In this document: piece after piece, positions 2,366 through 12,766 of the stretch
How the letters are laid out: each line of letters begins with the position of its first letter
Position numbering within the stretch: the first letter of the stretch is position 1
Assembly: GCA_025356695.1 (NCBI GenBank)
Contig: JANXSE010000418.1
Coordinates: 1 to 17,390 of the forward strand
DNA length: 17,390 nucleotides
Direction of reading: 5' to 3'
Origin: Betaproteobacteria bacterium
GTDB taxonomy: Bacteria > Pseudomonadota > Gammaproteobacteria > Burkholderiales > SG8-41
The notes under the pieces: model-generated
Told to the model about the DNA's origin: nothing
The model's database searches: none
Seen by the model: the letters and a program-made list of their open reading frames with translations, nothing else
Program-made: the position numbers and the translations under genes

Positions 2366-3424
2366 TCATGTAATGAGGATGTTCGGCTCGCCCGCCGACA
2401 AGGTGCCGATCTCGCAGGCCGTGGCAAAACCCTCGGCCTTGAAGATATCAAGCACCTTCGGTGCGGTGGCACGGTCGCAGGCCACCAGCAGCCCGCCGCT
2501 CGTCTGCGGATCGCACAACAGCTTGCGCTGCCATTCGGCAAAATCTGCGGGCAGTTTTGTATACGGCCCGACGCTGGCCCAGTTGCGCTCGGAGGCACCG
2601 GTGACATAACCGGCCTGCGCGAGATGCACCGCCGCTGACAGCACCGGAATCCCGGCGTAACGAATATCGGCGCGCAGTTTCGAGCCGCGGCAGATTTCAT
2701 GCAGATGGCCGAGCAGACCGAAACCGGTGACATCGGTCAACGCGTGCACGCCGGGCAACGCCGATAAGGCGATGCCGGGCGTGTTGAGTTGGGTCGTGAC
2801 GGCTATCATCTGCTGATAGGCCTTCTCGCGCAGCTCGCCCTTCTTCAGTGCTGCGCTCATGATGCCGACGCCGATGCCCTTGCCGAGAATCAGCACGTCA
2901 CCCGCCTGCGCGCCGTTGTTGCGTTTGACGCGCGACGGATGCACGAGCCCGATCGCCACCAGACCGTAGATCGGCTCGGGGTTGTCGATCGAATGCCCGC
3001 CGGCGATCGGAATACCCGCCGCCTTGCACACCGCCTCGCCGCCGGCGAGGATCTGCTGCGCCGCCTCGACCGGCAGCTTGCCCAGCGGCATGCCGAGCAG
3101 CGCCAGCGCGAAAATGGGCGTGCCGCCCATCGCGTAGACATCCGAGATCGCATTGGTCGCGGCGATGCGGCCGAAATCGTAGGCGTCGTCGACGATCGGC
3201 AAAAAGAAATCCGTGGTCGCGACGATCGCCTGTTCATCGTTGATGCGATAAACAGCCGCGTCGTCGCTCCACTCGGTGCCGACCAGCAAATTCGGATACG
3301 CTTTCGCCAGCGGCGATTTCGACAGCAATTCCCCCAGCAACGCTGGCGGTAATTTGCAGCCTCATCCGCCGCCGTGTGAAAATGCGGTCAGCTTGATTTT
3401 CTGTTGGTCCATGGGTTGAGTCAT
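2366..3424 (-). CDS. selD: Selenide, water dikinase (selenophosphate synthase), UGA-containing selenoprotein
   Basis: SelD makes selenophosphate from selenide and ATP, the selenium donor for Sec-tRNA and for 2-selenouridine in tRNA. The 352-residue frame starts at ATG 3424 (MTQPMDQQKIKLTAFSHGGG) and reads through a TGA at 3364-3362 as Sec21, giving GGG-Sec-GCK. This matches the catalytic Cys17...Lys20 of E. coli SelD (here Sec21, Lys24). Beyond the UGA the AIRS-type fold continues without interruption, with DFFLPIVDD, AISDVYAMGG, AGGHSID, LTDVTGFGLLGH and CDPQTSGGLL. A SECIS-like hairpin follows the UGA. A caller treating UGA as stop would start at a TTG at 3340 and lose the active site. Start is divergent from selU by 24 bp; the MFS gene follows on the same strand. 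Confidence 0.95.
3326..3364 (-). promoter_or_regulatory. Sec UGA codon and bacterial SECIS-like hairpin in selD
   Basis: On the minus strand the UGA (3364-3362) is followed after 20 nt by a GUU apical loop (3341-3339). The loop is closed by a perfect 5-bp stem CCAGC/GCUGG (3346-3342 with 3338-3334). The stem extends downward through two further C-G pairs after one G-G mismatch, and then weaker A/U pairing (AAUU on both sides). Loop distance and a GU in the loop agree with bacterial SECIS elements read by SelB, such as that of fdhF. The hairpin lies in coding sequence. Pairing was done by eye. Confidence 0.75.
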
Positions 3425-3448
3425 CGGGCTCGTTTCTTCGAGGTTTCA

Positions 3449-4498
3449 TTGCGTAACAACGAACCGGTTACCGTAGCACAACTCGCCGAATTTGACGAGG
3501 TCATTGACGTGCGCTCCGAGGCGGAATTCGCCGAAGACCACGTTCCCGGTGCGATCAATTGCCCGGTGCTCGACAACGAAGAGCGCATCCGTGTCGGCAC
3601 GCTCTACAAACAGGTTTCGCCGTTCGAAGCGAAAAAAGTCGGCGCAGCGCTGGTCAGCCGCAACATCGCGCGGCATATCGAAGAAAACCTCGCGCAGCGT
3701 CCGCGCAACTGGAAGCCGCTGATTTATTGCTGGCGCGGCGGCACGCGCAGCGGCGCGCTGACTTCGGTGCTGCAGCAGATCGGCTGGCGCGCCAACCGCC
3801 TCGAAGGCGGCTACAAAACCTACCGCCGCGCGGTGATCGACGATCTCGCCGTGCTGCCGCGGCAATTCAACTTGCGTGTCATCTGCGGGCTCACCGGCTC
3901 GGGCAAAAGCCGGCTGCTGCGTGCGCTTGACAAAGCCGGCGCGCAAGTGCTCGATCTCGAAGCGCTGGCGGCACACCGCGGTTCGGTGCTGGGCAACCTG
4001 CCGGATGCACCGCAACCCTCGCAAAAAATGTTCGAGAGCATGGTCTGGCATGCGCTGCGCAATTTCGACACCGCCAAACCGGTGTTCGTCGAATCGGAGA
4101 GCAAAAAAATCGGCAACCTGCGCACGCCCGAAGCGTTGATCGAGGCGATGTGGGCGAGCAACTGCATCCACCTTGAGGCGGGCACCGATCTGCGCGTACC
4201 GATGCTGATGCTGGAATACGATCACTTCGTGCGCGACTCCGCAGCACTCGGCGCGAAACTCGATTGCCTCGTGCAACTGCACGGACACGAACGCATCGAT
4301 GCATGGAAGGCACTGTCGGTCGCCGGCGACGACAAGACGCTGGTGCGCGAACTGCTGGAGCTGCACTACGACCCCGCCTACACGCGCTCCATCCTCGACC
4401 ACTACCCGCGCCTCGCGCAGGGCCTGCAACTCAGGGTTGAAGCGGACAGTGACGCCGATTTCGAGCGCCTCGCCGCGCAGTGCGTGGCCAGCGCCTAA
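3449..4498 (+). CDS. selU: tRNA 2-selenouridine synthase
   Basis: SelU (YbbB/MnmH) converts 2-thiouridine at the wobble position of certain tRNAs to 2-selenouridine via a geranylated intermediate, using selenophosphate. The 349-residue protein has an N-terminal rhodanese domain (VIDVRSEAEF near residue 20; YCWRGGTRSG with catalytic Cys94). A P-loop domain follows, with GLTGSGKS at 147-154. Length matches the family. The TTG at 3449 is chosen because GAGG lies 5 bp upstream and the family N-terminus is short; the frame is open back to 3404, but that would overlap selD. It is divergent from selD, its substrate supplier. The short gap means each promoter must overlap the neighbouring coding region. 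It is convergent with the small gene that ends at 4511. Confidence 0.93.
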   Translation: MRNNEPVTVAQLAEFDEVIDVRSEAEFAEDHVPGAINCPVLDNEERIRVGTLYKQVSPFEAKKVGAALVSRNIARHIEENLAQRPRNWKPLIYCWRGGTRSGALTSVLQQIGWRANRLEGGYKTYRRAVIDDLAVLPRQFNLRVICGLTGSGKSRLLRALDKAGAQVLDLEALAAHRGSVLGNLPDAPQPSQKMFESMVWHALRNFDTAKPVFVESESKKIGNLRTPEALIEAMWASNCIHLEAGTDLRVPMLMLEYDHFVRDSAALGAKLDCLVQLHGHERIDAWKALSVAGDDKTLVRELLELHYDPAYTRSILDHYPRLAQGLQLRVEADSDADFERLAAQCVASA

Positions 4499-6109: not shown

Positions 6110-6118
6110 TGGTATAAT
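6110..6118 (+). promoter_or_regulatory. Extended -10 promoter of the arn operon
   Basis: TGGTATAAT is a perfect extended -10 (TG-N-TATAAT), placing transcription start near 6125. No good -35 hexamer is found 16-18 bp upstream, which extended -10 promoters tolerate. It overlaps the first in-frame ATG (6117), so that ATG cannot be on the transcript and arnT must start at 6153. No PmrA- or PhoP-like box was recognised in 6033-6112. Confidence 0.65.
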
Positions 6119-6152
6119 GCTTCCCCATTTGAACGGTTCCCCGCCCATCTCG

Positions 6153-7805
6153 ATGTCATCGCCCACACGCGCCACGCGCGGCTGGTGGCTCATCCTCATC
6201 GCCGCACTGCTGATCTGGTGCGCCAACCTCGATTACCGCAAGCTCGCGCTCTCCGACGAGGGCCGCTATTCCGAGATTCCGCGTTACATGGCGCAGTCCG
6301 GCGACTGGGTGACGCCGCGCCTCAACGGCATCAAGTATTTCGAAAAACCCGCGCTGCAATACTGGACGACGGCGGCCGCTTACAAGGTCTTCGGCGAACA
6401 CGAATGGACCGCGCGCATCTGGCCGGCCGTCACCGGCTTCGCCGGCCTCCTGCTGGTCTTCTTTGCCGGCGCACGACTGTATGGTGCAGCGGCCGGTTTT
6501 TACGCGGCGCTGGTGCTTGGCAGCAGCCTGCTCTATGCGGGCATGGCGCACATCCTGACACTCGATATGGGGCTCGCCTTTTTCATGGCGCTGGCCATGG
6601 TCGGTGTGTTGCTCGGCCTCGATCCAGGCGGCAGCGCGCCATCGCAAAAGCGCTGGATGCATGTCGCCGCTGCCGCCTGTGCGCTGGCGGTATTGAGCAA
6701 GGGCCTGGTCGGCATCGTGCTGCCCGGCGCCGTGGTTGTTTTATACATGCTGGTCAAACGCGATTTCGGCCTGTTGCGCCGCCTGCATCTTGTCAGCGGC
6801 GGCCTGCTTTTCTTCGCTGTCTGCGCACCGTGGTTCGTTGTCGTTTCACTGGCCAACCCGGAGTTCCCGCATTTCTTTTTCATCCACGAGCATTTCCAGC
6901 GCTACACCTCGACCGTGCACCAGCGTTATCAGCCGTGGTATTACTTCATACCAATTCTGCTGCTGGGCATTCTGCCGTGGATCCTGACGCTGTTCGACGC
7001 ACTGTTCGCGGCGGTCAAACGCGAACGCGTGCGTGAATTCGATGCAACGCTGTTTCTGCTGATCTGGGCGGGCTTCATCTTCGTGTTCTTTTCGGCTTCG
7101 GGTTCCAAGCTGCCGTCGTACATTCTGCCGATCTTTCCGGCACTCGCCCTGCTGATGGGCGCGCGGCTTGCTGAAATCCGCGGCCGCACGCTGGCACTGC
7201 AGCTGCTGCCGATCGCCCTGTTGGCCGCCGCCGGTTTATACGCCACGCAATTTACGGATCGCCTTGCCTCGGCGGCAATCCCGGCGGAACTTTATCGCGC
7301 GCAGATGCCCTGGCTGCATGCGGCGGCAGCAACATTGCTGATCGGCATGCTCGCCGCCATCACGCTCGGCTGGCGCGGCAAGACGCATGCGGCCATCGCC
7401 TTCTGCGCGCTATCCGGACTGGCGACAACACAGCTGGCGGTCACCAGCGAAGACGCGTTGTCGCCGGCGCACTCGACTTATCATCTGGTGAAAAAGCTGC
7501 CAACCGACATCACACCCGCAACGCCCTTCTACAGCATCGGCAGTTACGAACAGACGCTGCCGTTTTATCTCAAGCGCACGGTCACGCTGGTTGAATATCA
7601 GGACGAAATGGCCTTTGGCCTCGAACACGAACCGCAGCACTGGATACCAACGATCAAGGCTTTCGAGCCCGTCTGGAACACGCAGACCTATGCGCTGGCC
7701 GTGATGGGGCCCGAGATGTACGATCAACTGCAAAAAGCCAATCTGCCGATGCAACTGATCGCGCGCGACACTGAACGCGTGTTCGTGCGCACCCCGCCGC
7801 GCTGA
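6153..7805 (+). CDS. arnT: Lipid A 4-amino-4-deoxy-L-arabinose transferase
   Basis: A 550-residue inner-membrane GT-C glycosyltransferase, about the length of E. coli ArnT. It moves L-Ara4N from undecaprenyl phosphate to lipid A phosphates on the periplasmic face, lowering surface charge and giving polymyxin resistance. Near the N-terminus are one membrane helix and the first periplasmic loop with SDEGRYSEI (residues 34-42), SGDWVTPRLNG and YFEKP (62-66). These match the DE-containing and FEKP motifs of the PMT/ArnT family. A dozen or so further hydrophobic segments follow. Start 6153 is chosen because the earlier ATG at 6117 lies in the promoter -10. It is the first gene of the arn operon; the SMR gene follows after 22 bp. 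A related PMT-family transferase with another sugar is possible, but context favours ArnT. Confidence 0.92.
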   Translation: MSSPTRATRGWWLILIAALLIWCANLDYRKLALSDEGRYSEIPRYMAQSGDWVTPRLNGIKYFEKPALQYWTTAAAYKVFGEHEWTARIWPAVTGFAGLLLVFFAGARLYGAAAGFYAALVLGSSLLYAGMAHILTLDMGLAFFMALAMVGVLLGLDPGGSAPSQKRWMHVAAAACALAVLSKGLVGIVLPGAVVVLYMLVKRDFGLLRRLHLVSGGLLFFAVCAPWFVVVSLANPEFPHFFFIHEHFQRYTSTVHQRYQPWYYFIPILLLGILPWILTLFDALFAAVKRERVREFDATLFLLIWAGFIFVFFSASGSKLPSYILPIFPALALLMGARLAEIRGRTLALQLLPIALLAAAGLYATQFTDRLASAAIPAELYRAQMPWLHAAAATLLIGMLAAITLGWRGKTHAAIAFCALSGLATTQLAVTSEDALSPAHSTYHLVKKLPTDITPATPFYSIGSYEQTLPFYLKRTVTLVEYQDEMAFGLEHEPQHWIPTIKAFEPVWNTQTYALAVMGPEMYDQLQKANLPMQLIARDTERVFVRTPPR

Positions 7806-7827
7806 AGAAGTTACCGAGGAGGCAACC

Positions 7828-8199
7828 ATGAACGCCATCAGTTTTTCACTGCTCATGACCGGCGTGCTGCTCAACGCCGGCGCGCAACTGCTGCTCAAGG
7901 CCGGCACCAACAGCGTCGGCACCTTTGAATACATCAGCGCCAACATCATTCCGATCGGCTGGAAGCTCGCCACCGAGCCGCACATCATCGGCGGGCTGGG
8001 CTGTTACGTCATCAGCGTGGTAGTGTGGATCATGGCGCTGTCGCGCGTCGAAGTCAGCATCGCCTATCCACTGCTGTCGGTCGGTTATGTCGTCAATGCG
8101 ATCGCCGCCTATTACCTGTTCGGCGAGGCGGTGACGCCGATGCGCTTGACCGGCATTGCCGTCATCATCGTCGGCGTCTGGATCGTCGCGCGGTCGTAA
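7828..8199 (+). CDS. SMR-type membrane protein, likely undecaprenyl-phosphate-Ara4N flippase subunit (ArnE/ArnF-like)
   Basis: 123-residue protein with four hydrophobic helices, the small multidrug resistance/EamA half-transporter architecture. Features include LLMTGVLLNAGAQLLLKAG in TM1, VEVSIAYPLLSVGYVVNA in TM3 and a final GIAVIIVGVWIVA helix. A strong GAGGAGG ribosome site precedes the ATG. In enterobacteria ArnE and ArnF together move undecaprenyl-phosphate-Ara4N across the inner membrane. Here one gene occupies that place between arnT and arnC, so it may act as a homodimer or pair with a distant partner. An efflux role (EmrE-like) is less likely given the operon. The flippase role is inferred from position and fold. 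Confidence 0.85.
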   Translation: MNAISFSLLMTGVLLNAGAQLLLKAGTNSVGTFEYISANIIPIGWKLATEPHIIGGLGCYVISVVVWIMALSRVEVSIAYPLLSVGYVVNAIAAYYLFGEAVTPMRLTGIAVIIVGVWIVARS

Positions 8200-8230
8200 A
8201 CCCCCTTCGCATCGGGTAACATTCGCCTTC

Positions 8231-9181
8231 ATGAGCACCCCACAGGTTTCCGTCGTCATACCGGTTTACAACGAAGAGCAGACATTGCCGCTGCTGTTCG
8301 CGCGCCTCTATCCGGCGCTCGACAAGCTCGGCGTTGGCTATGAGATCATTTTCATTAATGACGGCAGCCGCGACCGCTCGGCGGCCCTGCTGCGCCAGCA
8401 GTACGAAAAACGCCCCGACGTCACCCGCGTCATCCTCTTCAACGGCAACTTCGGCCAGCACATGGCGATCATGGCCGGCTTCGAGAACGTGCGCGGCAGT
8501 CGCATCGTTACACTCGACGCCGATCTGCAGAACCCGCCGGAAGAAATCGGCAACCTGCTGGCAGCCATGGACCAGGGCCACGATTACATCGGATCGATCC
8601 GCAAGAACCGCCAGGATTCGGCTTTCCGCCGTCACGCCTCGCGCATGATGAACTGGATGCGCGAGCGCATCACCAAAATCCGCATGACCGACCAGGGCTG
8701 CATGCTGCGCGCCTACGACCGACCGATCGTCGACGCCATCACCAGCAGCCGCGAGATCAACACCTTCATCCCGGCGCTCGCCTACAACTACGCGGCGAAC
8801 CCGACCGAAATCGAAGTCGCGCATGAAGAACGCGCCGCCGGCGAATCGAAGTATTCGCTCTACAGCCTGTTGCGCCTGAATTTCGATCTGGTCACCGGCT
8901 TTTCAATCGTACCGCTGCAGGTGTTCTCGCTGCTCGGCATGCTTGTCGCCGTGCTGTCGGTTCTGACTTATATCGTCGTCATCGCCCAGCGCTGGTTCGC
9001 CGCCGGTAGTATTGCCGAAGGCCTGATAGCGCTGTGGGATCGTGACATTCTGCAGTTCTTCCTGACGGGCATCGTGCTGTTCGGCGTAGGACTCCTCGGC
9101 GAATACATCGGCCGCATCTACCAGCAGGTGCGCAGCCGGCCGCGCTTTCTGATTCAGGCGATCCTGGAACGCAAAGAATGA
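8231..9181 (+). CDS. arnC: Undecaprenyl-phosphate 4-deoxy-4-formamido-L-arabinose transferase
   Basis: 316-residue GT2-family enzyme that transfers Ara4FN from UDP to undecaprenyl phosphate on the cytoplasmic side of the inner membrane. Residues 6-16 (VSVVIPVYNEE) open the GT-A fold. DADLQNPPEE (Asp96-x-Asp98) is the metal/nucleotide-sugar motif, and a conserved MTDQGCMLRAY segment follows. Two C-terminal hydrophobic helices (about 230-295) anchor it, as in E. coli ArnC and the dolichol-phosphate-mannose-synthase-like family. ATG 8231 is chosen from the start of the fold, since the frame is open upstream into the SMR gene. Its stop overlaps the next start (ATGA), indicating translational coupling. 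Confidence 0.92.
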   Translation: MSTPQVSVVIPVYNEEQTLPLLFARLYPALDKLGVGYEIIFINDGSRDRSAALLRQQYEKRPDVTRVILFNGNFGQHMAIMAGFENVRGSRIVTLDADLQNPPEEIGNLLAAMDQGHDYIGSIRKNRQDSAFRRHASRMMNWMRERITKIRMTDQGCMLRAYDRPIVDAITSSREINTFIPALAYNYAANPTEIEVAHEERAAGESKYSLYSLLRLNFDLVTGFSIVPLQVFSLLGMLVAVLSVLTYIVVIAQRWFAAGSIAEGLIALWDRDILQFFLTGIVLFGVGLLGEYIGRIYQQVRSRPRFLIQAILERKE

Positions 9182-10113
9182 CGCGTGCGGTTGTTTTTGC
9201 TTATCACAATGTCGGCGTCCAGTGTTTATCCGTGCTGCTCAAGCACAAGATCGACGTCGCGCTGGTTCTCACGCACATCGACAATCCGGCTGAACTGATC
9301 TGGTTCGACAGCGTTGCGGCATTGTGCAAACAGCATGGCATCGAAGCCATCACACCAGACGACGCCAACACGCCCGCGATACTCGAACGTATACGTGCAC
9401 TGAAACCCGATTTCATCTTCTCGTTTTACTACCGCAACATGCTGAAGCAGCCGCTGCTCGACTGCGCTTCGCGCGGCGCGCTCAACATGCACGGCTCGCT
9501 GCTGCCGCAATACCGCGGCCGTGTGCCGATCAACTGGGCGGTGATCAACGGCGAATCCGAAACCGGCGCCACGCTGCATTACATGACAGCAAAACCCGAT
9601 GCCGGCGACATCGTCGATCAACAGGCCGTGGCCATCCTGCCCGATGAAACGGCAGCGGACGTGTTCAAAAAAGTCACCAGCGCGGCGGCACAGGTGCTCG
9701 ACCGCAGCCTGCCCGGCCTCGTTGCCGGCACCGCGCCCCGCGTTAAACAGGATCTGACGGCCGGCGCTTATTTCGGCGGCCGCAAGCCGGCTGACGGTTG
9801 CATCAACTGGGCGCTGCCTGCACTGCGCGTGCACAACCTCGTGCGCGGCGTGGCCCCGCCCTATCCCGGCGCGTTTACCAATCTTGCAGGCGGCACGCTG
9901 AAGGTGTTCCGCACACAGCCCGAACCGACGGCACCTGCCGGCTTGCCGCGTCCGTCATTGTCCGTGCGTGATGGACACTGCGTCGCCGTCTGCAGCGACG
10001 GCAGCGCGCTGCGTCTGCTGGAAATGGAATTTGAAGGCAAACCTTTAAACGCACGTGATTTTCTGTCACGTTTCGGCGACAATCCGGTAATACTGGAGAC
10101 CTTGCAACAATGA
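9178..10113 (+). CDS. arnA: UDP-L-Ara4N formyltransferase (stand-alone equivalent of ArnA N-terminal domain)
   Basis: 311 residues matching the formyltransferase half of ArnA, which N-formylates UDP-Ara4N with 10-formyltetrahydrofolate. Catalytic residues align with E. coli ArnA Asn102, His104 and Asp140: Asn103-Met-His105 in NMHGSLLP, and Asp141 in KPDAGD. A C-terminal subdomain of the methionyl-tRNA formyltransferase type follows (INWALPALRVHNLVRG..PYPGAF). In E. coli this domain is fused to the dehydrogenase; here it ends with its own TGA overlapping the next ATG. Both junctions, with arnC and with the dehydrogenase, are 4-bp overlaps, so the three are one translation unit. Confidence 0.92.
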   Translation: MTRAVVFAYHNVGVQCLSVLLKHKIDVALVLTHIDNPAELIWFDSVAALCKQHGIEAITPDDANTPAILERIRALKPDFIFSFYYRNMLKQPLLDCASRGALNMHGSLLPQYRGRVPINWAVINGESETGATLHYMTAKPDAGDIVDQQAVAILPDETAADVFKKVTSAAAQVLDRSLPGLVAGTAPRVKQDLTAGAYFGGRKPADGCINWALPALRVHNLVRGVAPPYPGAFTNLAGGTLKVFRTQPEPTAPAGLPRPSLSVRDGHCVAVCSDGSALRLLEMEFEGKPLNARDFLSRFGDNPVILETLQQ

Positions 10114-11153
10114 AACGCATACTCATACTCGGCGTCAACGGCTTCATCGGCCACCACCTTTCCCAGCGCATCATCAAGACCACCGACTGGGAGGTCTACG
10201 GCATGGACATGCAGACCGACCGTATTTCGGACCTGCTGCACCATCCGCGCTTTCACTTCTTCGAAGGCGACATCACGATCAACAAGGAGTGGATCGAATA
10301 CCACATCCGCAAATGCGACACTGTGCTGCCGCTGGTGGCGATCGCCACGCCGGCCACCTACGTCAAGCAGCCGCTGAAGGTGTTCGAGCTCGATTTCGAA
10401 GCCAACCTGCCGATCGTCCGCCATTGCGTCAAATACAAGAAGCGCGTCGTTTTCCCGTCGACCTCCGAGGTCTACGGCATGTGCGACGACGCCGAGTTTG
10501 ACCCGGAACTGTCGAACATGGTCCTCGGCCCGATCAACAAGCCGCGCTGGATTTATTCCTGCTCGAAGCAGTTGATGGACCGCGTGATCCACGCCTACGG
10601 CATGCAGGAAGGCCTGCAATACACGCTGTTCCGCCCGTTCAACTGGATCGGCTCCGGCCTCGACAATATCCACACGCCGAAGGAAGGCAGCTCGCGCGTG
10701 ATCACGCAGTTTCTCGGCCACATCGTGCGCGGCGAAAACATCAAGCTGGTCGACGGCGGCACGCAGAAACGCGCCTTCACCTACATCAGCGACGGCATCG
10801 ACGCGCTGATGAAAATCATCGACAATCCGCGCGGCATCGCCAGCAGCAAGATTTACAACATCGGCAACCCGACCAATAATTACTCGGTCAAGGACCTCGC
10901 GCAGATGATGCTGAAACTTGCACTGACCTATCCCGAGTACCAGGCCAGCGCAAAGAAGGTCAAGCTGATCAAGACCACCTCGGCGCTGTATTACGGCAAA
11001 GGCTATCAGGACGTGCAGAACCGCGTGCCGAAGATCGCCAACACGCGCACCGACCTCAAGTGGAAACCGCAGGTCGACATGAAAACCGCGCTGAAGAACA
11101 TCTTTGACGCCTATCGCACGCATGTCGCTGACGCCAAGAACTTGATGAATTGA
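10110..11153 (+). CDS. arnA: UDP-glucuronate 4-dehydrogenase/decarboxylase (stand-alone equivalent of ArnA C-terminal domain)
   Basis: 347-residue extended SDR that oxidatively decarboxylates UDP-glucuronate to UDP-4-keto-arabinose with NAD. The N-terminal Rossmann motif is GVNGFIG (8-14). Catalytic residues agree with E. coli ArnA: Ser119-Glu120 in PSTSEVYG (Ser433/Glu434) and Tyr149-x3-Lys153 in YSCSK (Tyr463/Lys467). The segment YGKGYQDVQNR probably carries the active-site Arg (Arg619). Glu and Arg at these positions separate decarboxylases from plain epimerases. Its start overlaps the formyltransferase stop. A stretch of 100 bp without a recognisable signal separates it from arnD. Confidence 0.93.
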   Translation: MKRILILGVNGFIGHHLSQRIIKTTDWEVYGMDMQTDRISDLLHHPRFHFFEGDITINKEWIEYHIRKCDTVLPLVAIATPATYVKQPLKVFELDFEANLPIVRHCVKYKKRVVFPSTSEVYGMCDDAEFDPELSNMVLGPINKPRWIYSCSKQLMDRVIHAYGMQEGLQYTLFRPFNWIGSGLDNIHTPKEGSSRVITQFLGHIVRGENIKLVDGGTQKRAFTYISDGIDALMKIIDNPRGIASSKIYNIGNPTNNYSVKDLAQMMLKLALTYPEYQASAKKVKLIKTTSALYYGKGYQDVQNRVPKIANTRTDLKWKPQVDMKTALKNIFDAYRTHVADAKNLMN

Positions 11154-11253
11154 TGCGCTTTGCGACGTAAAGTGTGAAGGGCACGATTTTTCCGGTACTG
11201 GCGGTGACGCGGCATTCCTCCTAACACCGCGCTTCTCACGCCTCATCCCTCTC

Positions 11254-12174
11254 ATGAAAATCGCTCTCAAAATCGACGTCGATACCTACCGCGGCACGCG
11301 CGAAGGCGTGCCGCGTCTGATCGATGCATTGAAGCGTCACCATGCCGGCGCCACCTTTCTGTTCAGTCTCGGCCCCGACCATACCGGTCGCGCCATCCGC
11401 CGTGCCTTACGCCCCGGCTTCATGAAAAAAGTGTCGCGCACCTCGGTGCTCGAACACTACGGCATCGTCACCCTGCTCTACGGCACGCTACTGCCCGGTC
11501 CCGACATCGGCGTACGCTGTGCCGACATTCTGCGCAGCGTGCGCGACGCCGGCTTCGAAACCGGCATCCACACCTGGGACCACGTCAAATGGCAGGACGG
11601 TGTGGCGCAGGCTGACGCCGCCTGGACCGTGGAACAGATGGAGCTGGCGTGCAAACGCTACGAAAACGTTTTCGGCGAACGTGCGCGCGTGCACGGCGCC
11701 GCCGGCTGGCAGATGAACCGGCACGCCTACCGCCTGACGCAACAACTCGGTTTCGATTACTGCTCCGACACGCGCGGCGGCGGCCCCTTCATTCCCGTCA
11801 TCAATGGTGAGATCATCGCCTGCCCGCAACTGCCGACCACGCTGCCGACGCTGGACGAACTGATCGGCGTCGGCGCTATCACCGTGGACAACGTCGCCGA
11901 CCATCTGCTGCACCTGAGCGCCGACAACCGCGCAAGAGGCCACGTCTACACGCTGCACGCCGAACTCGAAGGTATGAAGCTGCTGCCGGTGTTCGAGCGC
12001 TTGCTCGAAGGCTGGCGCGCCGCCGGCCACGAACTTGTTTCACTGCGCGATTATGCCGGCACACTCGAAGCCGGCGCGCTACCGCGCTACGCAGTCATCG
12101 ATGGCGAAATTCCCGGACGCTCCGGCACACTCTCGGTGCAGGACGGCGAATTTCTGGCGGAAGCCGCACCATAA
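11254..12174 (+). CDS. arnD: 4-deoxy-4-formamido-L-arabinose-phosphoundecaprenol deformylase
   Basis: 306-residue NodB/polysaccharide-deacetylase-type hydrolase that removes the formyl group from undecaprenyl-phosphate-Ara4FN before flipping. The first motif, KIDVDTYRG with Asp8 and Asp10, sits at the extreme N-terminus as in E. coli ArnD. GIHTWDHVKWQD supplies the metal-binding histidines, and a C-terminal TLHAELEG segment carries another conserved His. There is no signal peptide, fitting a cytoplasmic-face enzyme. It is the last arn gene; the 100-bp gap from the dehydrogenase is the largest in the cluster, but no terminator or separate promoter was recognised there. Confidence 0.93.
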   Translation: MKIALKIDVDTYRGTREGVPRLIDALKRHHAGATFLFSLGPDHTGRAIRRALRPGFMKKVSRTSVLEHYGIVTLLYGTLLPGPDIGVRCADILRSVRDAGFETGIHTWDHVKWQDGVAQADAAWTVEQMELACKRYENVFGERARVHGAAGWQMNRHAYRLTQQLGFDYCSDTRGGGPFIPVINGEIIACPQLPTTLPTLDELIGVGAITVDNVADHLLHLSADNRARGHVYTLHAELEGMKLLPVFERLLEGWRAAGHELVSLRDYAGTLEAGALPRYAVIDGEIPGRSGTLSVQDGEFLAEAAP

Positions 12175-12298: not shown

Positions 12299-12766
12299 AT
12301 GCCCAAGAAAACGTTTCCTGATTTCGAGCTACCCGGAACCAGCGGCATCACCTTCAAGCTTTCTGCGCAGCGTGGCCATCCTGCCGTGCTCTACTTCTAC
12401 CCGAAAGACAACACCCCGGGCTGCACCACCGAGGGCCAGAACTTTCGCGACCTGCATCCGCAGTTCCAGAAACTGAAGTGCGCCGTCTTCGGCGTCTCGC
12501 GCGACAGCCTGAAGTCGCACGAAAATTTCAAGGCCAAGATGACCTTTCCGTTCGAGTTGCTGTCGGACGCGGAAGAAACGGCGTGCAAGCTCTTCAGCGT
12601 GATCAAGATGAAGAACATGTACGGCAAGCAGGTGCGCGGCATCGAACGCAGCACCTTCGTTTTCAACGCCGCCGGCGAACTGGCGCGCGAGTGGCGCGGC
12701 CTCAAGGTGCCGGGCCACGCGCAGGAAGTCCTCGACTTCATCAAGACACTGGGGCCCGCGAACTGA
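12299..12766 (+). CDS. bcp: Thioredoxin-dependent peroxiredoxin, PrxQ/Bcp type, without the usual resolving Cys
   Basis: 155-residue cytoplasmic peroxiredoxin that reduces H2O2 and organic hydroperoxides. The thioredoxin-like fold carries YFYPKDNTPGCTTEG, with peroxidatic Cys42. In most PrxQ proteins a resolving Cys follows five residues later (E. coli Cys45/Cys50). Here that position, 47, is Gln. Other cysteines lie at LKCAVFG and TACKLF, so it may work as a 1-Cys enzyme or use a distant partner. Length is typical. A weak ribosome site precedes the ATG; a candidate promoter lies upstream. The PIN-PhoH gene follows 78 bp downstream on the same strand. Confidence 0.93.
   Translation: MPKKTFPDFELPGTSGITFKLSAQRGHPAVLYFYPKDNTPGCTTEGQNFRDLHPQFQKLKCAVFGVSRDSLKSHENFKAKMTFPFELLSDAEETACKLFSVIKMKNMYGKQVRGIERSTFVFNAAGELAREWRGLKVPGHAQEVLDFIKTLGPAN

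Follow-up and report, generated by a model that had tools for sequence, protein, structure and literature searches.

The window, by which we mean the whole stretch of 17,390 nucleotides that was analysed, carries on its minus strand a selD gene with an in-frame TGA codon close to its start (Table 1). When this codon is read as selenocysteine (Sec), the product begins MTQPMDQQKIKLTAFSHGGGUGCKLPP... and scores 514 bits against the curated SelD equivalog NF002098 (cut-off 299) and 425 bits against TIGR00476 (cut-off 125), so the comparison with SelD families that an earlier note on this DNA had suggested as a check is favourable to its identification of the gene. That note had also placed Sec at the catalytic position of the enzyme, and the alignment agrees: Sec21 lies opposite Cys17 and Lys24 opposite Lys20 of chain 3u0o_A, which we take to be E. 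coli SelD, with Cys17 and Lys20 presumably its catalytic residues. The gene has TGA (2366-2368) as its own stop codon as well. An ordinary ORF caller reports a protein of 324 amino acids from an internal TTG at 3340, which is 28 residues short and lacks the active-site loop, exactly the truncation that had been foreseen for standard gene calling. Of the 13 close relatives with Sec, 12 have a start codon aligned with the ATG at 3424 (ATG in 11, GTG in one); the SelD start of L010 is two codons later.

Table 1. Positions of the selenium-related features in the window.
Feature	Position	Strand	Detail
selD, selenide water dikinase	2366..3424	minus	352 residues with Sec at residue 21
Sec codon TGA	3362..3364	minus	opposite Cys17 of 3u0o_A
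bacterial SECIS-type hairpin within the coding sequence	3325..3357	minus	apical loop GUU at 3341-3339, inner stem CCAGC/GCTGG
mnmH (selU/ybbB), tRNA 2-selenouridine synthase	3404..4498	plus	NF008752, 508 bits (cut-off 266)

The mnmH gene is divergent from selD and has an uncertain start, the first TTG being at 3404 and a later TTG at about 3449. Of the 63 fetched Sec loci with at least 900 bases of upstream flank, 59 have mnmH in this divergent position next to selD (48 of 52 when repeats are left out); the upstream flank is present in L153, L186, L204 and L215 and gave no mnmH match there. An MFS gene (1177-2316) lies downstream of selD and was otherwise found only beside the selD genes of L001-L004 and L168, so we leave it out of the system. 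Elsewhere in the window, a Prx gene at 12299-12766 is, from its sequence, a Cys form, and a scan of 96 TGA codons for conservation of read-through was made against a near relative whose DNA is too similar to be informative. On the plus strand, successive genes at 6117-12174 encode proteins in which Pfam recognises aminoarabinose-transferase, formyltransferase, epimerase and deacetylase domains; we take this run to resemble the lipid A arn operons.

The RNA structure that follows the TGA is where the earlier note had seen it: the loop, GTT in the DNA, opens 20 nt past the codon. The 61-nt region 3370-3310 folds more strongly than 200 of 200 shuffled versions (z -3.4), and a scan of the window with Rfam gave no match at the gathering threshold. 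According to the available part of PMC13188914, a bacterial SECIS (bSECIS) element has a loop of 3-9 nt with a G in its first two positions, a stem of 4-16 bp, a spacing of 16-37 nt and an MFE of -7.5 or lower. The extended hairpin in the window (3357-3325) lies inside all of these limits with its GTT loop, its spacing of 20 and its folding energy of -15.4 kcal/mol, as scored with a script that requires at least four pairs overall rather than a contiguous upper stem. The scoring for a bacterial SECIS that had been recommended in the earlier note was thus positive for the window, but it lacked the power to discriminate: the same generic rules accept 69 of 69 Sec rows and also 50 of 97 Cys genes, and so the hairpin alone proves little. 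For this reason we rejected the generic bSECIS criteria as proof and relied instead on tests of codon entropy. The best hairpin has a spacing of 20 and a GTT or GGT loop in 54 of the 69 Sec rows and lies elsewhere in the remainder (for example, in L215 and L225-L230). The 69 are the rows distinct by sequence among 81 rows with TGA, L138, L169-L177, L179 and L287 being repeats of other loci.

Codon freezing is the best evidence for a SECIS in these genes, and it discriminates Sec genes from Cys genes. Among 165 conserved columns in 68 Sec rows, codon entropy falls to zero only at the TGA itself, at codon +7 (GCG) and at codon +9 (CTG), while the median of the conserved columns is 1.13. At codon +9 the entropy is 1.95 in 96 Cys genes versus 0 in the Sec rows. 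The 68 rows represent 67 genes, for L153 was excluded and L278, a shorter copy of the L227 gene, was still counted; L020 was dropped from the Cys set to give the 96 used. The residues encoded under the hairpin also differ from those of Cys relatives: Ala occupies +7 in 68 of 68 Sec rows and Leu occupies +8 in 54 of 68, whereas in the Cys rows L013-L048 position +7 is mostly occupied by other residues and +8 is Val in 24 of 34. The SelD protein may have been bent to fit its RNA hairpin.

The in-frame TGA is neither chance nor error, and nearly a whole family shares it. One scan of genome contigs confirmed 384 relatives, and in the best 80 of these 384 loci, which were fetched, the catalytic codon is TGA in 13 and TGC or TGT in 66; the SelD motif that we used was not found in the one other, L020. 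The nearest relative, L001 in genome G001, has a SelD that is 95% identical to that of the window. SelD with exactly one in-frame TGA is found in 70 of the 74 genomes of G001's family, and the TGA is at the codon used in the window in all 52 of those 70 whose position was read. As to the other four genomes, G397 has a C-terminal SelD fragment only and G390, G403 and G441 gave no match of SelD grade. The family matches listed include no Cys form of SelD grade; in addition, G416 and G424 each have a distantly related SelD-like frame that is free of stops (33% and 32% identical). Beyond the family, an order sample of 399 genomes drawn evenly, 267 of them with a SelD match at E<=1e-60, has a TGA-containing SelD in at least 25 genomes, 12 within G001's family and 13 outside it, and in all 13 of the latter the TGA was read at the same codon. 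In a class sample of 369 genomes, the matches of SelD grade that were listed have one TGA in G001, G266, G148 and G346. We conclude that the organism of the window is closely related to G001 and belongs to a betaproteobacterial lineage in which SelD as a rule contains Sec.

Some individual loci in these samples call for comment. The matches in G148 (C3:36854-37882) and G346 (C13:1128828-1129859), which correspond to L282 and L283, are SelD matches of about 40% identity with one TGA each; one of the two lies in an open frame of 770 residues, and the SelD motif was found in neither locus. Genome G410 has two copies of a Sec-selD on different contigs (L298, L299), by duplication, strain mixture or an assembly effect. 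The titles of the MAGs that contain L001, L004 and L012 (Chitinophaga pinensis, Bordetella parapertussis) do not seem to be the right organism names, because G001, G004 and G012 fall in one family and their SelDs group in a clade with MAGs titled Betaproteobacteria.

How the codon came to be TGA is a question on which the trees differ. A FastTree phylogeny of 202 rows with the Sec site masked, from which most Hymenobacter-type rows were left out, gathered the 68 Sec rows (without L153) into one clade (0.935) inside Cys rows, and a 97-row tree from which the SECIS-coding stretch had been removed gave one clade of its 30 Sec rows with a weak support of 73. The first tree suggested a single, clean Cys-to-Sec gain, a reading that we abandoned since a careful tree of 59 rows split the Sec rows and AU tests kept the alternatives alive. 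In that 59-row tree the Sec rows form two groups with Cys rows between them, which amounts to three changes when L153 is included, and both Sec groups are inside a node (98/99) that itself lies among Cys rows; a single Sec clade was not rejected on these data (AU, p 0.195). A tree that united the Sec rows with L153, the Sec form from Gammaproteobacteria, was rejected (p-AU 0.0009). The Cys rows treated as betaproteobacterial include, judged by title, L019 and L046 (Gammaproteobacteria), L040 (Chromatiaceae) and L042 (Lamprocystis). For rpoB we asked for 30 genomes, obtained a match in 27 and built a tree of 26 rows, G518 being left out: the family rows with G448 and G577 make up one Sec group (99/98), G787, G500 and G733 make up a second one beside the Cys genome G569 (85/87), and a single Sec clade was again not rejected (AU, p 0.391). 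One oddity is L019 in genome G013, a Cys SelD 65% identical to that of the window in a genome that is without SelA and groups with the gammaproteobacterial G266 on rpoB, which is either the result of a selD transfer or a binning artefact.

On the SelD tree as on that of rpoB, Cys rows surround the Sec rows and also lie beyond them. A move from Cys to Sec is thus the parsimonious direction, and a Cys-to-Sec gain in this part of the Betaproteobacteria is the simplest reading rather than a proven one; it may stand for one gain, for two, or for a gain plus a loss. The opposite polarity, in which these Betaproteobacteria had Sec to begin with and their Cys forms have arisen by loss, is in our estimation the less likely course of events, the position of those outer and surrounding Cys rows telling against it, but it draws some support from the AU tests. 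When the 54 near Cys rows of the 97-row set were held together as a clade, the resulting tree scored 15 log units above the quick free tree (p-AU 0.722), and a near-Cys clade was not rejected on the 59-row tree either (p 0.236); moreover, some Cys rows are inside the well-supported node that contains the Sec groups, where a loss of Sec to Cys is possible.

The earlier note had inferred that the organism must carry selA, selB and selC, and for the window's organism we deduce these genes from its relatives, which are mostly fragmented, MAG-like assemblies. SelA is found in 67 of the 74 family genomes; the other seven are without it at 1e-5, and one of the seven, G011, has a SelA fragment. All 13 close genomes with Sec-SelD have SelA (one as a fragment at a contig end) and SelB over the cut-off, and 12 have tRNA-Sec over the cut-off, which in G006 was not found at that level; ARAGORN reports tRNA-Sec, with anticodon tca, in all 12 of the loci that it was given. 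G001 has SelA, SelB and tRNA-Sec. In G013, the one Cys-SelD genome examined alongside them, none of the three was found over the cut-off. Among the matches listed for the order sample, SelA (E<=1e-20) occurs in 24 of 25 Sec-SelD genomes, the exception being G581, versus 85 of the 374 others, a group that may hold further Sec forms because the count of 25 is a minimum.

In the 12 genomes in which tRNA-Sec was found, the selB and selC genes are on the same strand and 1098-1355 bases apart in 12 of 12 clusters, and between selB and the tRNA-Sec gene all 12 (L108-L119) have a gene for a thioredoxin-reductase-like protein with the CxxC motif CADC. Two of these proteins score 245 and 239 bits against TIGR01292, below its cut-off of 343, and so we call them TrxR-like rather than proven TrxR. 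In the literature searched we found no earlier report of a reductase gene inside a sel cluster. It is possible that the TrxR-like protein of this cluster reduces redox proteins that contain Sec.

Candidates for such proteins are present. An alpha subunit of FDH-N with one TGA is found in at least 12 of the 74 family genomes, one of them partial, when at most nine candidates per genome are scored at E<=1e-100; three further family genomes have an FDH match without a TGA, which in two of the three, G412 and G413, is a C-terminal piece. In G001 the UGA-containing FDH-N alpha gene (C9:79305-82382; L123) is on the same contig as selD (C9:64455-65510). A weak FDH-type match in G011 (C174:754-1254, E 3.9e-11) has two in-frame TGA codons. 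With a UGA-containing FDH gene in only 12 of 74 genomes it looked likely that the Sec machinery was being kept for SelD alone, an idea that we rejected on finding AhpC-TSA genes with UGA in 10 of the 13 close genomes (G001, G002, G003, G004, G006, G007, G009, G010, G011 and G012; stretches L398-L415). SelD is therefore probably not the sole selenoprotein predicted for these close genomes, although the machinery may serve SelD alone in G005, G008 and G014, whose searches gave no UGA-containing gene for FDH or for AhpC-TSA.

The AhpC-TSA search returned 25 rows with one TGA each, which fall into four sequence groups (of 10, 7, 7 and 1 rows) with the UGA contexts PFAFTGGU, FFYIGAFTxxU, ATWUxxC and DDTPGU. 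We take the UGA to occupy the place where Cys relatives carry their redox Cys, and the groups to be two types of peroxiredoxin, a TlpA-like UxxC protein and a BCP type; the genes for the TlpA-like protein and for one of the Prx types are in tandem. Four of the UGA-encoded proteins, with Cys typed for Sec, score above the Pfam AhpC-TSA cut-off. Codons of conserved residues are again frozen after the UGA in the three groups that have enough members: in one group, identical codons were found for 8 of 9 such residues at +1 to +13 versus 3 of 60 elsewhere in the genes, in a second group for 8 of 11 versus 9 of 57, and in a third for 7 of 12 versus 15 of 81. From the three families searched, six selenoprotein genes are predicted in G001 (SelD, FDH and four AhpC-TSA) and six in G007 (SelD and five AhpC-TSA). 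The available text of PMC5029168 sets the threshold for calling an organism selenoprotein-rich at six, and links such richness chiefly with Deltaproteobacteria, Clostridia and Synergistetes.

Taken at the level of sequence, these observations indicate that the selD gene of the window is almost certainly functional, that its catalytic residue would be selenocysteine and that Sec would be inserted at the UGA by way of the hairpin. By analogy with the established bacterial mechanism, SelB carrying Sec-tRNA-Sec would bind the hairpin just past the UGA, and Sec would be put in at residue 21 in place of termination. Sec21, together with Lys24, would then help to convert selenide and ATP to selenophosphate, which would feed the synthesis of Sec-tRNA, including that for the Sec of SelD itself, as well as the selenouridylation of tRNA by the divergently encoded MnmH. 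Several peroxiredoxin- and TlpA-type proteins of the lineage also appear to carry Sec.

Other readings of the TGA fare much worse. The UGA could be a true stop, selD having decayed or starting at the internal TTG, and the clean frame that an ordinary caller finds from position 3340 would fit this; we judge it very unlikely nevertheless, because the Sec relatives have conserved SelD sequence ahead of the UGA as well, because one in-frame TGA has been kept almost throughout the family while the codons round the hairpin are frozen, and because a protein that started at the TTG would be without both residues of the catalytic loop. More improbable still is a reassigned code in which UGA specifies Trp or Gly: we found nothing in its support, selD itself terminates with TGA, the 25 AhpC-TSA rows have their single TGA where a redox Cys is expected, the codons that follow it are frozen in three of the four groups, and close relatives have SelA, SelB and tRNA-Sec. 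A sequencing or assembly error that turned TGC or TGT into TGA, which the earlier note had named as a possible refutation and which the Cys codons in 66 of the best 80 SelD loci might seem to favour, is scarcely credible given that independent assemblies of other species have the same TGA.

With UGA read as Sec in SelD, a wider interpretation can be put forward, tentatively, as one that we would hold at somewhat less than even odds. It is that a lineage-wide move from Cys to Sec has taken in SelD, up to four groups of peroxiredoxin- and TlpA-type proteins and, in part, FDH; that the selA-selB-TrxR-selC cluster serves these proteins, which its TrxR-like member may reduce; and that SelD is a further case of conversion besides that in Pasteurellales, made under demand from the cell's own selenium clients. 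Redox genes that contain UGA would be broken by ordinary ORF calling, which shortens selD too, and the family's selenium biology is therefore likely to be under-annotated. A family that has Sec-SelD almost throughout, with close Cys relatives at hand, offers a natural test of why selenium should be needed by the very enzyme that activates it, and the UGA-containing peroxiredoxin-type genes and the reductase-like gene of the sel cluster make up a redox system that can be tested.

Sec-SelD itself is well known, as the earlier note had said of some bacteria: in the part of PMC4561486 available to us, Sec is present in 19% of the SelD genes of the reference set, always at the same position, and Pasteurellales are the first clearly documented case of a Cys-to-Sec conversion of SelD. 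Its setting here is what we have not found described. Our search of the literature, which covered paper listings and main texts, turned up no report of Sec-SelD in Betaproteobacteria, and the available portions of PMC5029168, PMC9312934, PMC12013277, PMC13188914 and PMC7435645 carry no mention of it; a supplementary table may quite possibly have listed it before. For the Betaproteobacteria, the accessible text of PMC1794560 counts ten selenoproteins of one family, with FdhA the sole selenoprotein there, and proposes SelD as the single selenoprotein of several species with YbbB.

The SelD described here is the same enzyme as the Sec-SelD of other bacteria, with Sec at the same active-site position, and differs from it in lineage, a clade of the window's group with the gammaproteobacterial L153 having been rejected (p-AU 0.0009). 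It resembles the SelD of Pasteurellales in being a Sec form among Cys relatives, which points to conversion of the codon; the conversion is documented there, whereas here its direction is the parsimonious one and the AU tests permit others. The trait recorded earlier for Betaproteobacteria, in which FdhA is the only selenoprotein (PMC1794560, in its available part), shares with the present family the clustering of selA, selB and selC and the UGA-containing FDH alpha gene. In contrast to that trait, the family described here has Sec-SelD almost universally and UGA-containing FDH in a minority of genomes, with UGA-containing AhpC-TSA genes in 10 of 13 close genomes, and in 12 of 12 clusters its selB and selC have a TrxR-like gene between them.
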